Part shown: one piece after another, positions 3,721 through 16,648 of the stretch
Layout of the letters: every line of letters starts with the position of its first letter
Position numbering within the stretch: position 1 is the stretch's first letter
Assembly: GCA_945862295.1 (NCBI GenBank)
Contig: CAMAXT010000004.1
Location: forward strand, 1 to 64,000
Direction of reading: 5' to 3'
From: Pseudobacteriovorax antillogorgiicola
GTDB lineage: Bacteria; Bdellovibrionota_B; Oligoflexia; Oligoflexales; CAIYRB01
DNA length: 64,000 nucleotides
Position numbers and translations under genes: made by a program
The notes under the pieces: model-generated
Seen by the model: only the letters and a program-made list of their open reading frames with translations
Databases searched by the model: none
Told to the model about the DNA's origin: nothing

Positions 3721-3848
3721 AACTACCAATTCGTTTCAAGGTAACTATGGGTCTACATAAGGCTCGTATATACTGAGTGTTCACAAATCGTAGTGCACTT
3801 TCGCATCTGAAATTCGCGCAGAACATATTTTTGGAAAAGGAGTTCCCA

Positions 3849-5915
3849 ATGGATGCACAGCGGCTGTTTGATCTGATAAACAGCAAAGAGTTCGGCAAAG
3901 AGTTTGCTGATTTGAACTGGCAAGGTTCTTTCCGCGACTATCTAAATGTCGTTCTGGAAAGACCAGAAGTTGCTCGAACCGCATTTCAGCGTGTTTATGA
4001 CATGATCATGACCTACGGCAGCAAAAACTATATTGAATATAAAAAAGAAATCACACACTACAACTTCTTCGACGACCCTCATGATAACGGCAAAGACGCG
4101 ATCTTCGGTCTCGACGTCCACTTGCAGAAGCTTGTAAACGTGTTCAAAGCTGCTGCCCAACGCTACGGCCCTGAAAAAAGAGTTATTCTTCTACACGGAC
4201 CAGTAGGATCTTCTAAATCAACGATTGCTCGCCTTCTCAAAAAAGGTCTAGAGCGCTACTCGAAAACTCCAGATGGCGCGCTCTACACCTACACATGGAA
4301 TAATCTAGCTGACATCCTTGAGATGGAAGACGTCATGCCGTGCCCTGTGCACGAAGAACCGCTCCACCTTATTCCATTTGAGCAGCGCGAAACCGTTCTT
4401 ACTCAGCTCAATCAAAACCGTGACCGCGGTAAAAGCGTTCACATCGAAGGTGATACCTGTCCGGCCTGCCGCTTCGTGTACCGGGCACTGATGGAGCATT
4501 ACAAAGGCAGCTGGGATAAAGTTATCTCAAATCACATCCAAGTACGCCGTTTGGTTCTATCTGAACGTGACCGCGTGGGAATTGGCACATACCAACCGAA
4601 AGACGAAAAAAACCAGGACTCAACAGAACTCACTGGTGACATTAATTACCGGAAAATTGCCATCTACGGTTCAGACTCTGACCCGAGAGCGTTCAACTTT
4701 GACGGTGAATTCAACGTCGCAAACCGAGGTATCATCGAATTCATCGAGGTACTTAAACTCGACGTTGCGTTCCTTTACGACCTTTTGACTGCCAGTCAGG
4801 AACACAAGATCAAACCTAAGAAATTTGCTCAGTGTGACATCGACGAGGTCATTATCGGCCACACGAACGAACCAGAATTTAGAAAACTTCTTGGCAACGA
4901 GTTCATGGAAGCACTTCGAGATAGAACGATCAAAATCGACGTGCCATACATCACTAAGCTCAAAGAAGAGATCAAGATCTACGAGAAAGATTTTAACTCG
5001 GTATCAGTACCACACATTCATATCGCACCGCATACCCTAGAGATGGCAGCGATGTGGTCGATCCTGACGCGCCTTGAAGAGCCTAAAAAAGCAAATCTAA
5101 CACTTTTGCAAAAACTAAAACTCTACAACGGCAAGACTTCTCAGCAGTTCACAGAAGACAACATCAAGGAACTCCGCAAAGAAGCTAAGCGTGAAGGAAT
5201 GGACGGGGTCAGCCCTCGTTACATCCAAGATAAAATCTCAAACGCACTCGTTCTTGATAAAGGTGCGGGTTGTATCAACCCGTTCATCGTTCTTAACGAG
5301 CTTGAGTCTGGCCTAAAGGGTCACTCACTGATCAATAACGACGAAGTCCGCAAGCACTACAAAGAGCTGCTCTCTGATGTTAAGCGCGAATACGAAGATA
5401 TGGTTAAGCACGAAGTTCAGCGTGCGATCTCTGCAGATGAGTCGGCGATCGACAAACTCTGCGGTAACTACATCGACAACGTTAAAGCTTATGTTCAGAG
5501 AGAAAAAGTTCGCAATCCGTTCACTGGCGCTGACGAAGAACCAGATGAAAGACTGATGCGTTCAATCGAAGAGAAGATCGACATTCCTGAAAGCAGAAAA
5601 GACGACTTCCGGCGTGAGATCATGAACTACATCGGAGCTCTTGCGCTCGACGGTAAATCTTTCGACTTCAGAACTAACGAGAGACTCCACCGCGCTCTTG
5701 AGCTCAAGATGTTCGAAGACCAAAAAGATACGATCAAACTCACAACGCTTGTTTCAAACGTTGTTGACCGTGAAACGCAAGCTAAGATCGACGTTGTTAA
5801 GAACAGACTGATCAAGAACTACGGTTACTGTGAAATCTGCGCAAGTGACGTCCTTGCATTCGTAGCTAGTATCTTTGCTCGAGGCGATGTGTCTAAGTCT
5901 GACAAAGATAAATAA
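3849..5915 (+). CDS. prkA: PrkA family serine protein kinase
   Basis: 688 aa, slightly longer than typical PrkA (about 640). The N-terminal PrkA AAA domain has a Walker A loop, GPVGSSKST, near residue 117, and a cysteine set (CPVHEEP...CPACRF) around 170-215. The C-terminal third is the PrkA kinase-like region. The family is linked to stress and nutrient-starvation signalling and, in spore formers, sporulation. The listed ORF begins 24 codons upstream; ATG 3849 (MDAQRLF) is chosen for its GGAG ribosome-binding site and family N-terminus. It heads the prkA-yeaH-spoVR set, 41 bases before the next gene. Confidence 0.95.
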
Positions 5916-5956
5916 GCGGGACTTAGCTCAGGTGGTAAGGTTTTAGGGAGTTTCTA

Positions 5957-7066
5957 ATGGCTATGCATATGGAATCGGACTTAAACCGGTTCCGGAAAAT
6001 TGTTCGCGGCAAAGTTAAAAAAGAGTTACGCCGTTTTATTTCCAGTGGTGACCTTATTGGTCGCCAGGGAAAGAAAACCGTCACGATCCCTTTGCCACGA
6101 ATTGATATTCCTCACTTCCAATTTGGTAGTGGTGAGCAAGGTGGCGTCGGCCAGGGTGAAGGTGAAGTCGGTGACTCTGTCGGTCAAGGCGATCCACAGC
6201 CAGGTCAAGGCGAAGCCGGTGAAGGCGAAGGCAAGCATTCTCTTGAAGTCGATGTCACTCTTGAAGAGTTAGCTCAGATTTTAGGCGAGGAACTCCAACT
6301 CCCGAATATCGAGAACAAGGGCAAGAAGAACATCGAAGACAAGCAGTACAAATATACTGGTGTCCTTCGTCAAGGGCCGGAATCACTTAAGCACTTTAAG
6401 CGCACGTACAAAGAAGCTCTCAAGCGCGCTATCTCAACTGGAAGCTATGATCTAGACAATCCGATCATTATTCCAATCAAAGAAGATAAACGCTTTCGTA
6501 GCTACAAAGTCACCAATCTACCCGTAGCCAACGCCGTTATTGTTTACATGATGGACGTTTCGGGTTCGATGGGTGATGAGCAGAAAGAAATCGTAAGGCT
6601 TACGAGCTTCTGGCTCGATACCTGGCTAAGCACGCAATATGAAGGTCTAGAGCGCCGTTACATCATTCACGATGCGACAGCCCGCGAAGTGGACCAGAAC
6701 ACGTTCTACCGGACAAAAGAATCGGGCGGGACACTTATTAGTTCTGCTTACCGCTTGGCTCTTAAACTGATCGAAGATCATTATCCAGCATCTGAATGGA
6801 ACATCTATTTATTTCACTTCTCAGACGGTGACAATTGGTCAGGAAACGACACTGCTGAATGTATGAAACTTCTCGAGACAACCCTACTTCCGGCTTCAAA
6901 CCTGTTTTGCTACGGCCAGGTAGAGTCTCGTTACGGATCAGGTCAGTTTCTTAGAGATCTGCAGAAGCATTTCGGAGAGAATTCGAACAAGATCACGTTA
7001 GCGCAGATCAAAGACCGCGAAGCTATCGTTGACGCGATAAAAGTCTTCCTGGGTAAAGGAAAATAG
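5957..7066 (+). CDS. YeaH/YhbH family (DUF444) VWA-domain protein
   Basis: 369 aa. After a basic N-terminus and a Gly/Gln/Glu-rich low-complexity stretch (residues about 55-95), the C-terminal half is a von Willebrand A fold with the MIDAS motif MMDVSGSMG near residue 198. The YeaH family is almost always encoded between prkA and spoVR/ycgB, as here, and is thought to work with the PrkA kinase. The start ATG has AGGGAG 6 bases upstream. It is followed 4 bases later by spoVR, so the three genes form one operon. Confidence 0.93.
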
Positions 7067-7070
7067 AGAG

Positions 7071-8564
7071 ATGATGAAGGGCTACAACACCCAACTGACC
7101 CCAGAACTGCAGGAGATTGCGGATCGGCTTGGCGCGGTCGCAAAAGATGCTGGTCTTGACATATTCGACACGGTTTTTGAGTTGGTTGACTATAAGCAGC
7201 TAAATGAAATCGCAGCCTACGGCGGATTTCCAACACGCTACCCGCACTGGCGCTGGGGTATGGAGTACGAGCGTCTATCAAAGAGCTACACCTACGGCCT
7301 CTCGATTATTTACGAGATGGTCATCAACAATGACCCTTGCTACGCCTATCTTTTAAGAGCAAACGATCTCGTTTATCAAAAGACAGTGATCGCCCATGTG
7401 TACGGCCACTGCGACTTTTTCAAAAACAATTACTGGTTCTCAAAAACCAACCGAAAAATGCTCAATCAGATGGCCAACCATGCAACCGTGGTACGCAAGT
7501 TAGTCAACGAAGTTGGACAAGACGAGATCGAGACTTTCATCGACACCTGTCTCTCTCTTGAAAACTTAATCGACATCCATTCGCCGTTTAAAACAGCACC
7601 GAAAGCTCGTAGCACCGAAGATGCGATGCGGCCGAATGATCCGCCGAAGCTTCGCTCTAAAAACTACATGGATAAATACGTCAATCCAGCAGAATTCATG
7701 GCGCAACAGCAACAGAAACAAGTTGAGAACGCTCAGAAAACTCAAACGTTCCCCTCCAGTCCCGAGCGCGACATTCTCAAGTTTCTTCTTGATCACGCGC
7801 CTATGGCTAACTGGGAAAAACGCATCTTGAATATGATTCGAGATGAGTCCTATTATTTCGCTCCGCAGGCCCAAACCAAGATCATGAATGAAGGCTGGGC
7901 AACCTACTGGCACAGTAAGATGATGACTCAACTCGCTCCTCTCAGTGGAAGTGAAATCGTCGACTACTGCGACCACTACGCCGGCGTCGTTGCATCTCAG
8001 CCAGGTGGACTCAATCCGTATAAATTAGGGGTAGAACTCCTTAGGCACGTAGAACGCCGCTGGGACAGAGGCCAATTTGGTCTTGAGTACCTGCACTGCG
8101 ACGATCCAAAAGTCCGCGCTGCCTGGGACACTAAAGCAGGTCTTGGAAAACAAAAGCTTTTTGAAATCAGAAAATTCCACAACGACATTACCTTTCTCGA
8201 TGAATTCCTTGACGAAGACTTCTGTCACCAGACCAAGATGTTTATTTACGACTTTGATCGTCGTAACAACGAATATGTCATCTCGAGCAGAGACTTCAAA
8301 GCGATCAAGAAGTCGCTGCTGTCGCAGTTGACGAACTTCGGTCAACCGATCATGAAAGTTATCGATGGTAACTTTAAAAATAGAGGCGAATTGCTGATTT
8401 CCCATCTGCACGAAGGCACCGATCTGAAGCACAACACGGCCTTAGAGACTTTGAAAAATCTATATCGTGTCTGGAAACGTCCAGTGCATGTAGAAACTAT
8501 TATCGAAGACGTGAAGAGAAGAATTTCTTATGATGGGACAAATCATCAAATTGAAAAAATCTGA
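7071..8564 (+). CDS. spoVR: SpoVR/YcgB family protein
   Basis: 497 aa, typical length for the SpoVR family. Recognisable features are the N-terminal GGFPTRYPHWRWGMEYERL and the FKNNYWFSKTN, MNEGWATYWHSKMM and YLHCDDPKVRAAWD blocks. The family is required for proper spore cortex in Bacillus. In Gram-negatives it is co-expressed with prkA and yeaH in stationary phase; its biochemistry is unknown. Two start codons are adjacent (ATGATG). Its last 35 bases overlap the next gene. Confidence 0.95.
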   Translation: MMKGYNTQLTPELQEIADRLGAVAKDAGLDIFDTVFELVDYKQLNEIAAYGGFPTRYPHWRWGMEYERLSKSYTYGLSIIYEMVINNDPCYAYLLRANDLVYQKTVIAHVYGHCDFFKNNYWFSKTNRKMLNQMANHATVVRKLVNEVGQDEIETFIDTCLSLENLIDIHSPFKTAPKARSTEDAMRPNDPPKLRSKNYMDKYVNPAEFMAQQQQKQVENAQKTQTFPSSPERDILKFLLDHAPMANWEKRILNMIRDESYYFAPQAQTKIMNEGWATYWHSKMMTQLAPLSGSEIVDYCDHYAGVVASQPGGLNPYKLGVELLRHVERRWDRGQFGLEYLHCDDPKVRAAWDTKAGLGKQKLFEIRKFHNDITFLDEFLDEDFCHQTKMFIYDFDRRNNEYVISSRDFKAIKKSLLSQLTNFGQPIMKVIDGNFKNRGELLISHLHEGTDLKHNTALETLKNLYRVWKRPVHVETIIEDVKRRISYDGTNHQIEKI

Positions 8565-10543: not shown

Positions 10544-11092
10544 ATGGGGCGACATTCACGCGAAATTCTTCCTGGTGGCTATTTCCACTGCATCAATCGC
10601 GGTGTGGGCCGCCGTGAAATTTTTCACGAACAACGGGACTATGAAACTTTTGTTCATTTAATGCGAAGAAGTCAAAAGAAGTACCCGGTCAATATATCTG
10701 CATACAGCATCATGCCCAATCATTGGCATATTGTTTTATCCGCCGAATCTGGAAAACATCTGGCTCGTTTTTTTTCGTCGCTGCTCAACTCACACACCAG
10801 ATGGTATCACGCAAAATATAAATCAATAGGTCACGGCCCGATCTATCAAGGTAGATACAAGTCAATCCCTTTACCAGAAGAGGCTGTGCACTCTGTTTGT
10901 CGTTATGTCGAACGCAATCCGATCGCTGCCCATCTAGTAGCCGACGCAGGTGACTGGCCTTGGAGTAGCCATGGTTTTTGGACTGGAAAACTGAATACCT
11001 ACGGCCCCGTCTTAAGTCGCCCCTTTGTCGAGGATGCTACGCAGTGGGCAAAAGTAGTTGGATCTGATCCAATCAACATTTATAACAATTAG
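10544..11092 (+). CDS. REP-associated tyrosine transposase (RAYT, Y1_Tnp family)
   Basis: 182 aa. The HUH motif is visible in MPNHWHIVL (around residue 65), and the catalytic tyrosine is probably in VCRYVERNP (around 125). The N-terminal GGYFHCINRGVGRREIF is typical of the family. These single-strand nucleases bind and mobilise REP palindromes. Here the gene is flanked upstream by two direct copies and downstream by two inverted copies of the GGTGTCAGTCACC core, as expected. It appears intact. Its 3' end is repeated in diverged form immediately downstream. Confidence 0.92.
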   Translation: MGRHSREILPGGYFHCINRGVGRREIFHEQRDYETFVHLMRRSQKKYPVNISAYSIMPNHWHIVLSAESGKHLARFFSSLLNSHTRWYHAKYKSIGHGPIYQGRYKSIPLPEEAVHSVCRYVERNPIAAHLVADAGDWPWSSHGFWTGKLNTYGPVLSRPFVEDATQWAKVVGSDPINIYNN

Positions 11093-11273: not shown

Positions 11274-11669
11274 CTATACCGGAAAATGATGTAAACCGGA
11301 TTCTCGCGGCTTCGTCGCTTCCGTCAGCCACTTCTTGAGCAAAACAGTAAAGCCGCTGGGTCCGTGCGATTCAAGAATTTGCTCCAACTCGCCCTTATCA
11401 AGAAAAAGTCCTGAGCATGATCCGCAAACATCGGCTTTCACACCGTAGTGATCACTTTCTTTTAGTTGAGCTCCACACTTCGGGCACATCATCCAATGAC
11501 TTTTTACCCGCTCCAGGGATTCCATTTGTCGGCGCTGCTCGTCCAACCGACGACGGTTGCACTCGATGAGTTCGCTATTTAAATGGAAGAAGTACTCCTC
11601 TTCAACATCGTAGCCCGCTTTCTTAAGGGACTCGTTGACGGGTTTAGTGACGTTTTTATCTGAATGCAT
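11274..11669 (-). CDS. Zinc-ribbon (TFIIB-type zf) protein
   Basis: 131 aa. The central MCPKCGAQL...ADVCGSCSGLFLDKGELEQIL is the TFIIB-like zinc-finger family motif (two CxxC pairs, then GxxLDxGEL). N-terminal residues are charged and helix-prone. The start at 11669 (MHSDKN) is chosen over the ORF-track start 36 bases upstream because AGGAGGAGG lies 7 bases before it. Function is unknown; family members may bind nucleic acid or protein. The stop lies 8 bases from a REP-like element. Confidence 0.75.
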   Translation of the reverse strand: MHSDKNVTKPVNESLKKAGYDVEEEYFFHLNSELIECNRRRLDEQRRQMESLERVKSHWMMCPKCGAQLKESDHYGVKADVCGSCSGLFLDKGELEQILESHGPSGFTVLLKKWLTEATKPRESGLHHFPV

Positions 11670-11916
11670 ATTTGTTCCTCCTCCTAAACCTAATGCAACC
11701 GACATGCCACGATAAAGATTAGAAAAAAAGGGATCTGGGCGTGATTTCCCACCTACTTAACACGAGCACTAGCTGGGGCTACCACAGTGGGTGATGATTT
11801 GACCCATTTAAAAAACCAGGTGATTCTAATGAATTTTTCATAGTTTCACGATTTTCTTGCCGTTTTTATTAAAATTTGTTATCAGGATGCCCTGACTTTG
11901 AACAATCCGAGACCGT

Positions 11917-14580
11917 ATGCAAGAGCCATTCGACTCAATCTCTAGCAATCCTGTTCCAGCGTTAGATCCCCACGCTGTCGTACCGGAAATCCTTGCGCCT
12001 GCAGGCGGACGACAACAGTTTTTCGCGGCACTGAACTCAGGTGCAGACGCTGTCTTTTTAGGACTAGAAAGTTTCAACGCTCGAGCTCGCGCAACCAATT
12101 TCACAGCTGGAGACCTTAAAGAACTCGTACCAGTCGCCCATGCATTCGGCATGAAGGTTCTGGTCACAGTTAACATTCTAATTAAACAGTTAGAACTGCC
12201 GGAACTCTTTCGCACACTTGATGCAATCGAAGCTTCCGGCGCTGACGCTATCATTGTGCAAGACCTCGCCGTAGCTCGTATCGCCAAGAGATATTTCCCA
12301 GCTATCAGACTGCATGCCTCGACACAGATGGCCGTGCATAACGTCACAGGTGTTTTAGAAGCTGCAAAATACGGCTTTAAGCGCGTAGTTTTAGCTCGCG
12401 AATTAACACATCAAGAAGTACGAAGGATCCGCGCTGCTGTCTCAAGGGATGTAATAGAGCTTGAAGCATTCTGTCATGGCAGTCTTTGTTACAGTTACAG
12501 CGGCCTTTGCTTTTTCAGCGGTGCAGAAGATGCACGCAGCGGTAACCGCGGCGAATGCGCCTACACCTGCCGCCAGCCTTACAAAATCCTCAATGAGCCA
12601 GGCCACGGCTTTCTCTTCAGCATGAAAGATCTAGATACCTCAAAGAGTTTAGATCTTTTAATCAAAGCCGGGATTGATACCTTAAAGATCGAAGGGCGGA
12701 AAAAAGATGCCCAATACGTTGCGACGTCTGTAAAGCTTTACCGTCAGAATCTAAACCGCCTATTCGGCAGAGACACTCTAAGACCATCAGCACCGGCTTC
12801 AGCCTTCGAATTTATCCACGACAATAAGCCTGTGGAAACTGACCTTGAGTTCGCGTTTAAGCGCCAACCTACTTCGTTTTTTCTCAAAAGTAGGTACCAG
12901 GAAAACGTTATCGACCTTGATAACCCGACCCATAAAGGCTTGGAAGTCGGGACTATTCTTTCTGTAAACAATAACCAAATTACTTTCCGCACCCAGCACG
13001 CGATTGAGTTATATGACGGCCTTCGGATTGTTGACACCGGCAAGGTCTTTCATTCGAAACCACAGGACGGCATCAACGTCCGTACCGAACTGACGCAATC
13101 AATCGATCGCTACGAAAATAAGCACAGCGAATTTTCAGTTCGCAGTATCTATGTTGGCAGCCGTTCAAAGGTGAATGCAAAAAACGGCGACGTGGTCACC
13201 GTTGGATTGCCAGATAACATCAAAGCACCGAGTCCCGGCTCACAGATATTTAAAGTCCGCTCAGCCGAGCTAAAAGCCCGTGTAGAAAAAATCTCCCAGT
13301 TGCCAGCTGACATGCGCTTAACCACCCACGACCGCATTCATCTTAAGCTCAATCTCAGATCAAAAGACGATTCGGCTATTGAAATCACGGCTGTTTGCTC
13401 AAGTGGTTCATTCGATTTTGAGTTAGGTCCTTTCGCGATCAGCGCCGAAAGACCTAGAAATCAGTCCAAGTTTGGCCCAGAGCTAAATGCAATTCTTTCT
13501 GTTTTTGGCGAAGCTGAACTTACCTGTGAAAGCATAAATGTCAGCGGCGACACCAATTGGTTCGTACCTAAATCTCTACTTAAAAAATTCAAGGCGACTC
13601 TAGGCAAAGAAATAAAAGGCACTATAAATCAGCTTCGTTCAGAACGGATCGAACTCGGCGATCAGGCATTTCTAGGTCAACTTGGCGAAGACGACGAGAT
13701 CTATCCGGATGCAGGCGTCGTCGAATCCTTTACTGTTAAAACCGATCGGGCTGAAACTGCGGTCGCGGCTCTAGAAGAAAACTACCAAGCAGCATGCCTT
13801 AAAGAACTGGTGTTTGAGCCCAAAAGAGCATTCATGGGTGATACCAGTGCCGACTCAATCATCGATGATCTCTTTAGCCGCTGCCAAAAGGCTGGCGTCA
13901 TTCTTCGTATTGCGATCCCAACAGTCGTGCGCGCTTGGGACGAACCTCTCTTAAGTAAATGGGTGCGCTACGCGTTTGAAAAAGGCGTAAAACACTTCGA
14001 AGTTGGTAACATCGGCGGACCAGAGCTCGTTTATAAATGGACTGGTAGCCAAGACGTCGATCTGTCGGGCGACTTTACACTTTACGCTCTAAATTCCGAA
14101 GCACACGCTGCCATTAGTGAACTCGGGGTAAAATCAGCAACGCTTTCCGTAGAAGATGATTTAGAAAATATCGCCGCCCAGGTTGAAACCCTCTCGCCTG
14201 CAGCAGTCGCTGAGACTGCAGTGATCCTCTATAAAGATACGCCGCTATTTATTGCGGAAGCCTGCTCACTTACAGCCCTACATAACGGCTGCCCAAGTGC
14301 CGCCGTTTGTGGATACCGGACACTCGAAATCGAAAACAAAGAGGGTGAGCGGTTCTATGTTGCTCATGAATCTTGTAAGTCGGTGGTTTACGGCAAACGA
14401 GCGTTCGGCGTTACCCACCTGAAAGAGCATTTAAAAAATCTGGGTTTTAGAAACTTCCGTTTGGATTTTTTAACCCGTCCTTACACCAAAACCGAACTCT
14501 CTGCCGTCATTAATGCTGCCCTTTGCGGTAAGACGATAGAGCAAACCCACAGCGCAAACTTTACCCGCACCTTGTTATAG
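11917..14580 (+). CDS. U32 family protein, RlhA/YdcP-like (23S rRNA hydroxylation type)
   Basis: 887 aa, longer than E. coli RlhA (about 650-670). Residues 25-300 form the U32 TIM-barrel domain: PEILAPAGGRQQFFAAL, GADAVFLG, then the cysteine-rich block FCHGSLCYSYSGLCFFS...RGECAYTCRQPY, whose cysteines are Fe-S ligands in this family. KIEGRKKDAQYV follows. The middle resembles the collagenase-like accessory domain, and the C-terminal ~250 residues have a further cysteine set (CSLTALHNGCPSAAVC...CKSVVYG). RlhA supports 5-hydroxycytidine formation in 23S rRNA; the substrate here is inferred. The next gene begins 13 bases after the stop, so the pair is probably an operon. Confidence 0.8.
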   Translation: MQEPFDSISSNPVPALDPHAVVPEILAPAGGRQQFFAALNSGADAVFLGLESFNARARATNFTAGDLKELVPVAHAFGMKVLVTVNILIKQLELPELFRTLDAIEASGADAIIVQDLAVARIAKRYFPAIRLHASTQMAVHNVTGVLEAAKYGFKRVVLARELTHQEVRRIRAAVSRDVIELEAFCHGSLCYSYSGLCFFSGAEDARSGNRGECAYTCRQPYKILNEPGHGFLFSMKDLDTSKSLDLLIKAGIDTLKIEGRKKDAQYVATSVKLYRQNLNRLFGRDTLRPSAPASAFEFIHDNKPVETDLEFAFKRQPTSFFLKSRYQENVIDLDNPTHKGLEVGTILSVNNNQITFRTQHAIELYDGLRIVDTGKVFHSKPQDGINVRTELTQSIDRYENKHSEFSVRSIYVGSRSKVNAKNGDVVTVGLPDNIKAPSPGSQIFKVRSAELKARVEKISQLPADMRLTTHDRIHLKLNLRSKDDSAIEITAVCSSGSFDFELGPFAISAERPRNQSKFGPELNAILSVFGEAELTCESINVSGDTNWFVPKSLLKKFKATLGKEIKGTINQLRSERIELGDQAFLGQLGEDDEIYPDAGVVESFTVKTDRAETAVAALEENYQAACLKELVFEPKRAFMGDTSADSIIDDLFSRCQKAGVILRIAIPTVVRAWDEPLLSKWVRYAFEKGVKHFEVGNIGGPELVYKWTGSQDVDLSGDFTLYALNSEAHAAISELGVKSATLSVEDDLENIAAQVETLSPAAVAETAVILYKDTPLFIAEACSLTALHNGCPSAAVCGYRTLEIENKEGERFYVAHESCKSVVYGKRAFGVTHLKEHLKNLGFRNFRLDFLTRPYTKTELSAVINAALCGKTIEQTHSANFTRTLL

Positions 14581-14593
14581 ACTTGTTGTAACC

Positions 14594-16648
14594 ATGAACA
14601 TTCAACAGTTTGCAGAACAAATCCTCAAGTCCGCGACCCTTGCTGACAAACTCTACTTTCCGGAAGCAGGGCTCAGCTCATTTACTGATATCAAAACCCT
14701 GACAGCAAGTATCCCCGACCTGCCTGGACGCCCTCATGCTCTAGCGATGCGTAGCAATGACGACAAAAAAACAGCCTTCCCTACCGCTGCCGAGCTAAAA
14801 TCGCAGACCGCCCGTGGGATTGTTCTACACTTTTTTGCGAATCATGAATTACTTGCCATGGAACTAATGGCACTCGCACTTCTAAAATTTCCGGATGCTG
14901 ACAGCAAGTTTCGAATGGGAATTGTTCATACAATTCAAGAAGAGCAAAATCACATGCGTCTTTATCAAAAAAGAATGCATGACTACGGTGTCGAGTTTGG
15001 CGCCGTCCCCGTAAGCGGCTACTTCTGGGATTCTATCAGCAATATGCAAAGCCCCATGGACTATGTCACCCGCATGAGCATGACGTTCGAGCAGGCTAAC
15101 TTGGATTTTTCACTGTTCTACAAAAGTCTGTTCGCTGAAATTGGCGATAACGAGACGGCGCAGATTCTTGATCAAGTCTATCGGGAAGAAATCGGTCATC
15201 TTAAATACGGTGTGACCTGGTTCAATCGATGGAAAGATCCTAGCCTCGATGATTGGCAAGCATTCAATAAAAATCTTCCGTTTCCCATGACACCTAGCCG
15301 AGCGAAGGGCATTGGCTTTGACCGACAAGGACGAAAGACCGCGGGATTAAGTGATAAGTTTATCGACGAGCTCTACATCTATCAGTGCTCCAAGGGTAGG
15401 CCACCAGTTGTTTACTTCTTCAATCCCGCATCGGAGATGGAGGCTCTATTTCCAGAACATAACTTTACCGTGCCCTCTGCCGTGCAAGATGTGGCGCATG
15501 ATCTAGCAAGTCTTATGATGTTTTTGACGCAAGGCGACGATGTTGTCGTTACCAAAGAAAGACCTAGCACTGAATTTTTAACGCTCTACCGTGATGCCGG
15601 CTTTCTATTGCCTCAGTTTGCTGACTGGCCTGAGCTTACGAAGAGAACGATCACCCGCTTTGAACCCTGGGGTCAAACAAAATACAGTCAAAAATTGATC
15701 GAGTCTTTCAAGGGTCGCATTATCGAAAACCAACTCACCGTAGCACCAGAACAAATCTATTCCAAACGGTGGGCTGTGGAGACCTTTGGAAGCAGCGGGG
15801 AATTTCCATCAAAGATTGTCACTGAAACAAAAGCAGCTGTAGACGAAACTGCTGCATTCCTAGCTGAAAACGACAGCCCTCTTGTTATCAAAGCTCCCTA
15901 CGGGTCATCAGGTCGTAATATGATCAGAGCTATGCGTCCAGGACTCGAACCAAGACAAATCACTTGGATTGAATCCACTTTAAAGTCGCAAAAGGCATTG
16001 ATCTGCGAACCATGGGTTGAAAAGGTCACCGACTTGTCGGTTCAGCTGCAGGTCTCTGCTAATGGACCAAGGATTCTTGGCATCACCAACTTTCTCACAG
16101 ATAAACGTGGTCAATACATCGGTCATTTCTTAGGAAAGAAATTTCATCATCTTTCGCAAGATTTCCACCGGGAGTTCCATCGGCAGGAATTTCAAAAACA
16201 GTTGGAACTCAAAGCTGAAGAGATCGGTCTGCGGCTCTTCACTGAGGGATACCGCGGTGCTGCGGGCGTCGATGCATTTGTCTACAAAAACGGTGAAGCT
16301 ATGCGTCTACGCAGCTTTGTTGAAGTGAACCCGAGATTCACTATGGGCAGGATCGCATTAGAGCTAGAGAAGATGATTCCTTACAAGACCAAGGCCATTT
16401 GGTTGCATTTAAGTAAGAACACGATCAAGCATTTTGATTGGCAAAATTTTTCGGAGTGCGCTAACGACCTAAATCACCGTTTCCCTTATAAATTTGGAAA
16501 AGCTACGCCAAAGGATCACAGGCCACAGATGAGTGACGGGGTTCTCTTTACCAACGACCCATCCCAGGCAAAATCCTTGGTTTCAGTATTATTTGTCGGT
16601 GAAGCTTGCGACTTCGCACAAAAAGAACTGACGCCTAATTTAATTTAA
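14594..16648 (+). CDS. Ferritin-like DUF455 protein fused to an ATP-grasp-like domain
   Basis: 684 aa. Residues about 60-250 resemble the DUF455 ferritin-like family: helical, with ExxH-type metal motifs EEQNH (near 116) and EEIGH (near 198) plus further glutamates (HELLAMELMA, FEQANLDF). Residues about 370-640 look like an ATP-grasp fold, with PLVIKAPYGSSGRNMIRAM (nucleotide-binding loop), CEPWVEKVTDLSVQL and FVEVNPRFTMGRIA (acidic/Asn metal-binding end). The fusion suggests an oxidase or hydroxylase step coupled to an ATP-dependent ligation, but no substrate can be named. It lies 13 bases behind the U32 gene. Confidence 0.7.
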   Translation: MNIQQFAEQILKSATLADKLYFPEAGLSSFTDIKTLTASIPDLPGRPHALAMRSNDDKKTAFPTAAELKSQTARGIVLHFFANHELLAMELMALALLKFPDADSKFRMGIVHTIQEEQNHMRLYQKRMHDYGVEFGAVPVSGYFWDSISNMQSPMDYVTRMSMTFEQANLDFSLFYKSLFAEIGDNETAQILDQVYREEIGHLKYGVTWFNRWKDPSLDDWQAFNKNLPFPMTPSRAKGIGFDRQGRKTAGLSDKFIDELYIYQCSKGRPPVVYFFNPASEMEALFPEHNFTVPSAVQDVAHDLASLMMFLTQGDDVVVTKERPSTEFLTLYRDAGFLLPQFADWPELTKRTITRFEPWGQTKYSQKLIESFKGRIIENQLTVAPEQIYSKRWAVETFGSSGEFPSKIVTETKAAVDETAAFLAENDSPLVIKAPYGSSGRNMIRAMRPGLEPRQITWIESTLKSQKALICEPWVEKVTDLSVQLQVSANGPRILGITNFLTDKRGQYIGHFLGKKFHHLSQDFHREFHRQEFQKQLELKAEEIGLRLFTEGYRGAAGVDAFVYKNGEAMRLRSFVEVNPRFTMGRIALELEKMIPYKTKAIWLHLSKNTIKHFDWQNFSECANDLNHRFPYKFGKATPKDHRPQMSDGVLFTNDPSQAKSLVSVLFVGEACDFAQKELTPNLI

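Follow-up and report, generated by a model that had tools for sequence, protein, structure and literature searches.

Adjacent genes for an RlhA-like U32 protein and an uncharacterised DUF455/ATP-grasp fusion in a member of the Oligoflexia

The RlhA-like U32 protein

The diiron and ATP-grasp chemistries considered below occur together in the biosynthesis of beta-ethynylserine, where they belong to separate proteins, BesC (diiron) and BesA (ATP-grasp), and the [4Fe-4S] cluster of U32 proteins is known from UbiU and UbiV. The closest described relative of the U32 protein considered here is RlhA of Escherichia coli (YdcP; 653 aa), the 23S rRNA ho5C2501 synthase, which has a DUF3656 domain. RlhA and TrhP depend on prephenate, and E161/C169/C176 of RlhA and E162/C170/C177 of TrhP are reported to be essential (PMC6599085). 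The window analysed here, 64,000 nucleotides at the start of a contig of Pseudobacteriovorax antillogorgiicola, contains on its + strand a gene for a U32-family protein of 887 aa (11917..14580; PF01136, E 5e-62), followed after 13 bases on the same strand by a gene for a protein of 684 aa (14594..16648; PF04305, E 4.7e-47) in which a ferritin-like DUF455 domain is fused to a pre-ATP-grasp/ATP-grasp module; both open reading frames and the gap between them are as an earlier note on this DNA had placed them. The two products are probably independent enzymes whose genes became juxtaposed in one lineage, namely an RlhA-type RNA hydroxylase and a self-contained bifunctional diiron/ATP-grasp fusion. 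Literature searches found no paper on a ferritin-like/ATP-grasp fusion or on LdmS.

The U32 domain and the middle region are shared with RlhA, which aligns to the U32 family profile over 490 columns with 29% identity (hhalign, E 1.5e-53); TrhP aligns over 260 columns. The N-terminal U32 signature (residues 183-219; 12463..12573, + strand) includes E183, C186, C191, C198, C214 and C218, of which E183/C191/C198 are the alignment counterparts of the essential glutamate and two cysteines of RlhA and TrhP. All six residues are invariant in 12 U32 relatives, as are C783, C792, C798 and C820 (14263..14376, + strand), which lie in a C-terminal extension of approximately 290 aa that RlhA does not have. 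The earlier note's description of an RlhA-like U32 protein with two cysteine clusters is thereby upheld. The protein is called RlhA-like rather than RlhA because it has no Pfam match to DUF3656 (PF12392), at E 0.01 for the whole protein and even at E 1 for residues 529-887, although the corresponding region still aligns to RlhA in hhalign; it is called no more than RlhA-like because its scores are below the NCBIfam equivalog cut-offs of TrhP (176 versus 534 bits), UbiU (140 versus 440 bits) and UbiV (43 versus 275 bits).

The C-terminus, with its own four cysteines, looks like a divergent second U32-like domain, a reading modestly suggested by an hhalign comparison of the N-terminal and C-terminal halves (E 3e-4, but a probability of 38%). 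Four Verrucomicrobiota genomes encode long U32 proteins of 855-939 aa (G058 C104, G100 C119, G109 C121, G234 C1) that PF01136 matches twice, the second time C-terminally, and the long U32 proteins may therefore consist of tandem U32 domains, comparable within one chain to the UbiU-UbiV pair. A search of PDB sequences with the U32 protein gave no match, and the structural matches of an AlphaFold model built from 12 sequences (pLDDT 76.6) were mostly generic TIM-barrel and elongation-factor structures, with one short match to the U32 C-terminal domain 4he6.

The U32 protein is predicted to be a [4Fe-4S] RNA hydroxylase that would most likely act on C5 of a pyrimidine in rRNA, using prephenate instead of O2. 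In a related family, f8, the gene of a UPF0020/RlmKL-like methyltransferase directly adjoins the long U32 gene or overlaps with it (L068:8500-12845; L069:8669-12888; L071:3541-7868), which suggests an RNA-modification operon in that family; such a neighbour is in keeping with an RNA role for the long U32 proteins.

The two halves of the fusion protein

The DUF455 half of the fusion scores 161.1 bits against a Pfam gathering cut-off of 34.3. In the AlphaFold2 model its core (14804..15232, + strand) consists of four long helices (residues 71-98, 104-130, 154-182 and 186-213), on which alignment places a ferritin-like ligand pattern of E85, E117xxH120, E166 and E199xxH202, so that the four-helix bundle carries the E, ExxH, E, ExxH ligands of a predicted diiron-type metal site. 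The pattern is invariant in 97 of 97 aligned fusions, of which 76 were fetched by peptide patterns and 21 (set A1) by whole-protein search. Conservation of E85 and E166 in the pattern-fetched loci is partly by construction, because both residues lie inside the fetching patterns; they are likewise invariant in the 21 sequences of set A1. Further invariant residues surround the ligands (N83, H84, E90, Q118, W145, Q167, N169 and D171). The ferritin-like identity proposed in the earlier note thus holds in its family match, helices and ligands, and the motifs that it quoted for the two halves are present (EEQNH at 116-120, EEIGH at 198-202, EVNPRF at 577-582).

The only relatives of known structure detected by sequence are aldehyde-deformylating oxygenases (4kvs, 5k53), ferritin-like diiron enzymes that match weakly in the E199xxH202 helix; at E 0.07-0.5 the similarity may serve as a lead, not as proof of homology. 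The DUF455 half would bind two metal ions, probably iron, and would oxidise a small substrate with O2 by hydroxylation, desaturation or decarboxylation. Stand-alone DUF455 proteins (COG2833; annotated as ferritin-like domain-containing proteins in Sinorhizobium and Azospirillum) resemble this half but are about 275-285 aa long, have no ATP-grasp half and have other neighbours. The Sinorhizobium gene adjoins a peroxiredoxin gene, which might suggest a peroxide-related role, and neither a functional study nor an assayed member of DUF455 was found in the literature searched; both points would suit a DUF455 half that stores metal, acts as a peroxidase or presents a substrate in the manner of rubrerythrin, leaving the protein in effect only an ATP-grasp ligase. 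This alternative is unlikely, as the full ligand set and the many invariant residues around it suit a substrate-specific catalytic pocket, and the weak similarity to aldehyde-deformylating oxygenase also speaks for an oxygenase.

A Pfam scan of the C-terminal half found nothing above cut-off, the best match being ATP-grasp_3 at E 0.015-0.04. An AlphaFold2 model of the fusion was built from 21 relatives (mean pLDDT 90.8, pTM 0.87), and against the PDB Foldseek matched it to 8ynd, an ATP-grasp peptide ligase of Streptomyces (E 2e-12), to 7r8q, SAOUHSC_02373 of Staphylococcus aureus (E 1e-11), and to 3wvq/3wvr (E 4e-11). PurK, PurT and further ATP-grasp enzymes came next, and all of the best 50 matches have the ATP-grasp fold. 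We take 3wvq/3wvr to be PGM1 of pheganomycin biosynthesis, and SAOUHSC_02373 is presumably the protein behind the NCBIfam LdmS model. The fold shared with these peptide ligases covers residues ~270-684 of the fusion (E 1e-10 to 1e-12) with a TM score, normalised by target, of about 0.6 and an identity of 13-16%; the fusion differs from them in being joined to DUF455. A profile search gave weak support (7r8p, E 0.0007), and of 34 fusion members, 8 match PF18604 (PreAtp-grasp), at best with E 6e-6, and 10 match NCBIfam LdmS, at best with E 8.5e-5. The fusion of the window is nevertheless not assigned as LdmS (L-aspartate--L-methionine ligase), since it scores 15 bits against an equivalog cut-off of 475, hundreds of bits below.

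Conservation, Foldseek and these profile matches all support a pre-ATP-grasp and ATP-grasp ligase half at 15386..16645 (+ strand). The residues expected to bind ATP and Mg (K391, K433, G440, E472, D480, D560, E577, N579 and R581) are each present in 96-97 of the 97 fusions, and the predicted ATP-grasp fold thus comes with the putative nucleotide-binding lysines (K391/K433) and the putative Mg-binding E577-x-N579. The structure prediction that the earlier note had proposed as a check, and with it the reading of the C-terminal half as ATP-grasp, came out in that note's favour. Because the predicted structure, the Foldseek matches and the invariant catalytic residues agree, the second gene is considered a true fusion: a genuine two-domain enzyme, widespread and uncharacterised, whose folds are known. 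Both of its active sites are intact and co-conserved in one chain, with no fixed partner gene. Stand-alone ATP-grasp proteins of Bacteroidota (hypothetical proteins of Parabacteroides and Prevotella) match residues 273-591 of the fusion with 23-25% identity (E to 5e-20); they lack a DUF455 half, and the annotation shows no ferritin-like gene near them. Among the few stand-alone cases inspected, the genes for DUF455 and for ATP-grasp proteins do not adjoin, and a Rosetta-stone link between them was not retained.

Distribution of the U32 gene and the fusion gene

The survey of the phylum covered 58 genomes, of which 40 encode the fusion (a count that omits one weak partial match) and 21 encode the long U32 protein. 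Both genes occur in 19 genomes, of which only that of the window has them side by side. No U32 protein of any kind (PF01136) was found in 18 of the 40 fusion-bearing genomes, 16 of which are at least 90% complete and two of which are single contigs, or in two more fusion-bearing genomes labelled Latescibacterota and Gemmatimonadota. The loci collected from relatives (20 with the fusion and 12 with the U32 gene) never have the two together outside the window. In a further set of 80 fusion loci from Verrucomicrobiota, Latescibacterota, Gemmatimonadota, SAR324 and Oligoflexia, 76 of them with a full fusion open reading frame, no U32 gene lies within 6 kb of the fusion as far as the contigs reach; these loci were fetched by alignment-based peptide patterns, a single-sequence scan of genome contigs having given none.

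These counts bear on the proposal of the earlier note that the U32 protein and the fusion jointly perform one two-step modification, in which an RNA or a metabolite would be hydroxylated and then ligated at the expense of ATP. The close spacing on one strand is in its favour and tells against independence, since the two genes could be co-transcribed here, and genome-level co-occurrence within the phylum exceeds that expected of independent genes (Fisher p 0.009). The association weakens to p 0.10 when genomes are collapsed to families, for which reason shared ancestry may be the simplest explanation of the excess. Against a joint pathway are its frequency of adjacency (one of the 19 co-bearing genomes and none of the 80 loci) and the many fusion-bearing genomes without U32, single-contig ones included, and it is judged very improbable. 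The neighbourhood survey suggested in the earlier note found fusions to be generally without U32 partners, which is one of the two results that the note itself had named as refuting its proposal. With neither conserved linkage nor obligate co-occurrence, an operon or pathway of the two genes is rejected because U32 is often absent or distant where the fusion occurs, and the pairing can be dropped.

The reading as independent enzymes also accords with the gene order around the U32 gene. The row upstream of it (3777..8564, + strand), recognised by Pfam and by synteny with locus L066 of G004, a genome of the same family as the window, consists of genes for PrkA (YeaG-like), DUF444 (YeaH-like) and SpoVR (YcgB-like). 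In G004 the U32 gene keeps its DUF444-SpoVR neighbours, and a different contig carries the fusion gene. A tree built from 87 fusions places the protein of the window with those of its own family (SH-aLRT 84), and on this basis it does not appear to be an obvious recent import; the fusions of Verrucomicrobiota, of SAR324 and of Latescibacterota/Gemmatimonadota each make up a group of their own. Within the lineage of the window, the fusion gene seems to have been relocated to a position beside the U32 locus. The interval from the SpoVR set to the U32 gene holds a Y1/IS200-like transposase gene (PF01797; window 10544-11092) and, divergent from the U32 gene, a gene for a small zinc-ribbon protein (Zn_ribbon_TFIIB, PF13453; window 11274-11705). 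The IS200-type transposase gene precedes the U32 gene by 0.8 kb and may or may not have a bearing on gene rearrangement. Five loci of the tree (L104, L108, L115, L143 and L149) come from metagenome-assembled genomes with doubtful names, such as Klebsiella pneumoniae and Akkermansia muciniphila; their fusions fall among those of Verrucomicrobiota.

Predicted product and neighbours of the fusion

The ATP-grasp half, by its likeness to peptide ligases of the PGM1/LdmS type, would activate a carboxylate as an acyl-phosphate and join it to an amine in an amide or peptide bond. The product would probably be an oxidised amino-acid conjugate or a dipeptide. It is conceivable, at somewhat less than even odds, that the fusion makes a widespread metabolite not yet described, for which one and the same chain oxidises an amino acid or peptide at its diiron centre and links it to another building block. 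Oligoflexia, SAR324, Verrucomicrobiota, Latescibacterota and Gemmatimonadota would then make this metabolite with no dedicated gene cluster. The family offers a clean target, with two strictly conserved active sites on one chain in several phyla; as the fusion has no fixed partner gene, one purified protein could reveal the role of DUF455 in vitro.

The neighbours of the fusion vary by lineage and include trpS, PNP, DCC1-like, S41 protease, adenine deaminase and MnmA genes, of which trpS, PNP, adenine deaminase and MnmA were named by reading the sequences rather than by family search. The trpS gene is beside the fusion in Oligoflexaceae, PNP in another family, and the DCC1-like and S41 protease genes in the family of the window. 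The ATP-grasp half might instead modify a protein or an RNA, in the manner of an amidoligase or RimK, a possibility to which the position of trpS or mnmA beside the fusion in some lineages lends some weight, as do the housekeeping character of the neighbours and the lack of any recognised precursor-peptide gene or biosynthetic cluster at the loci. It is nonetheless doubtful, since the best structural matches (8ynd, 7r8q, 3wvq) are small-molecule amino-acid or peptide ligases and the neighbours change with the lineage, and a small amino acid or peptide is the preferred candidate substrate.

No conserved alternative partner for the fusion was found, the recurring neighbours being limited to particular lineages. 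Aminopeptidase genes adjoin the fusion in several groups, which may be due to chance: an M17 leucyl aminopeptidase gene is present in SAR324 and in Oligoflexaceae, two groups distant from each other, upstream of the fusion at L088 and L116 and downstream at L058, L060 and L063, and an M24 aminopeptidase P gene is present beside it in two Verrucomicrobiota (L108, L118).
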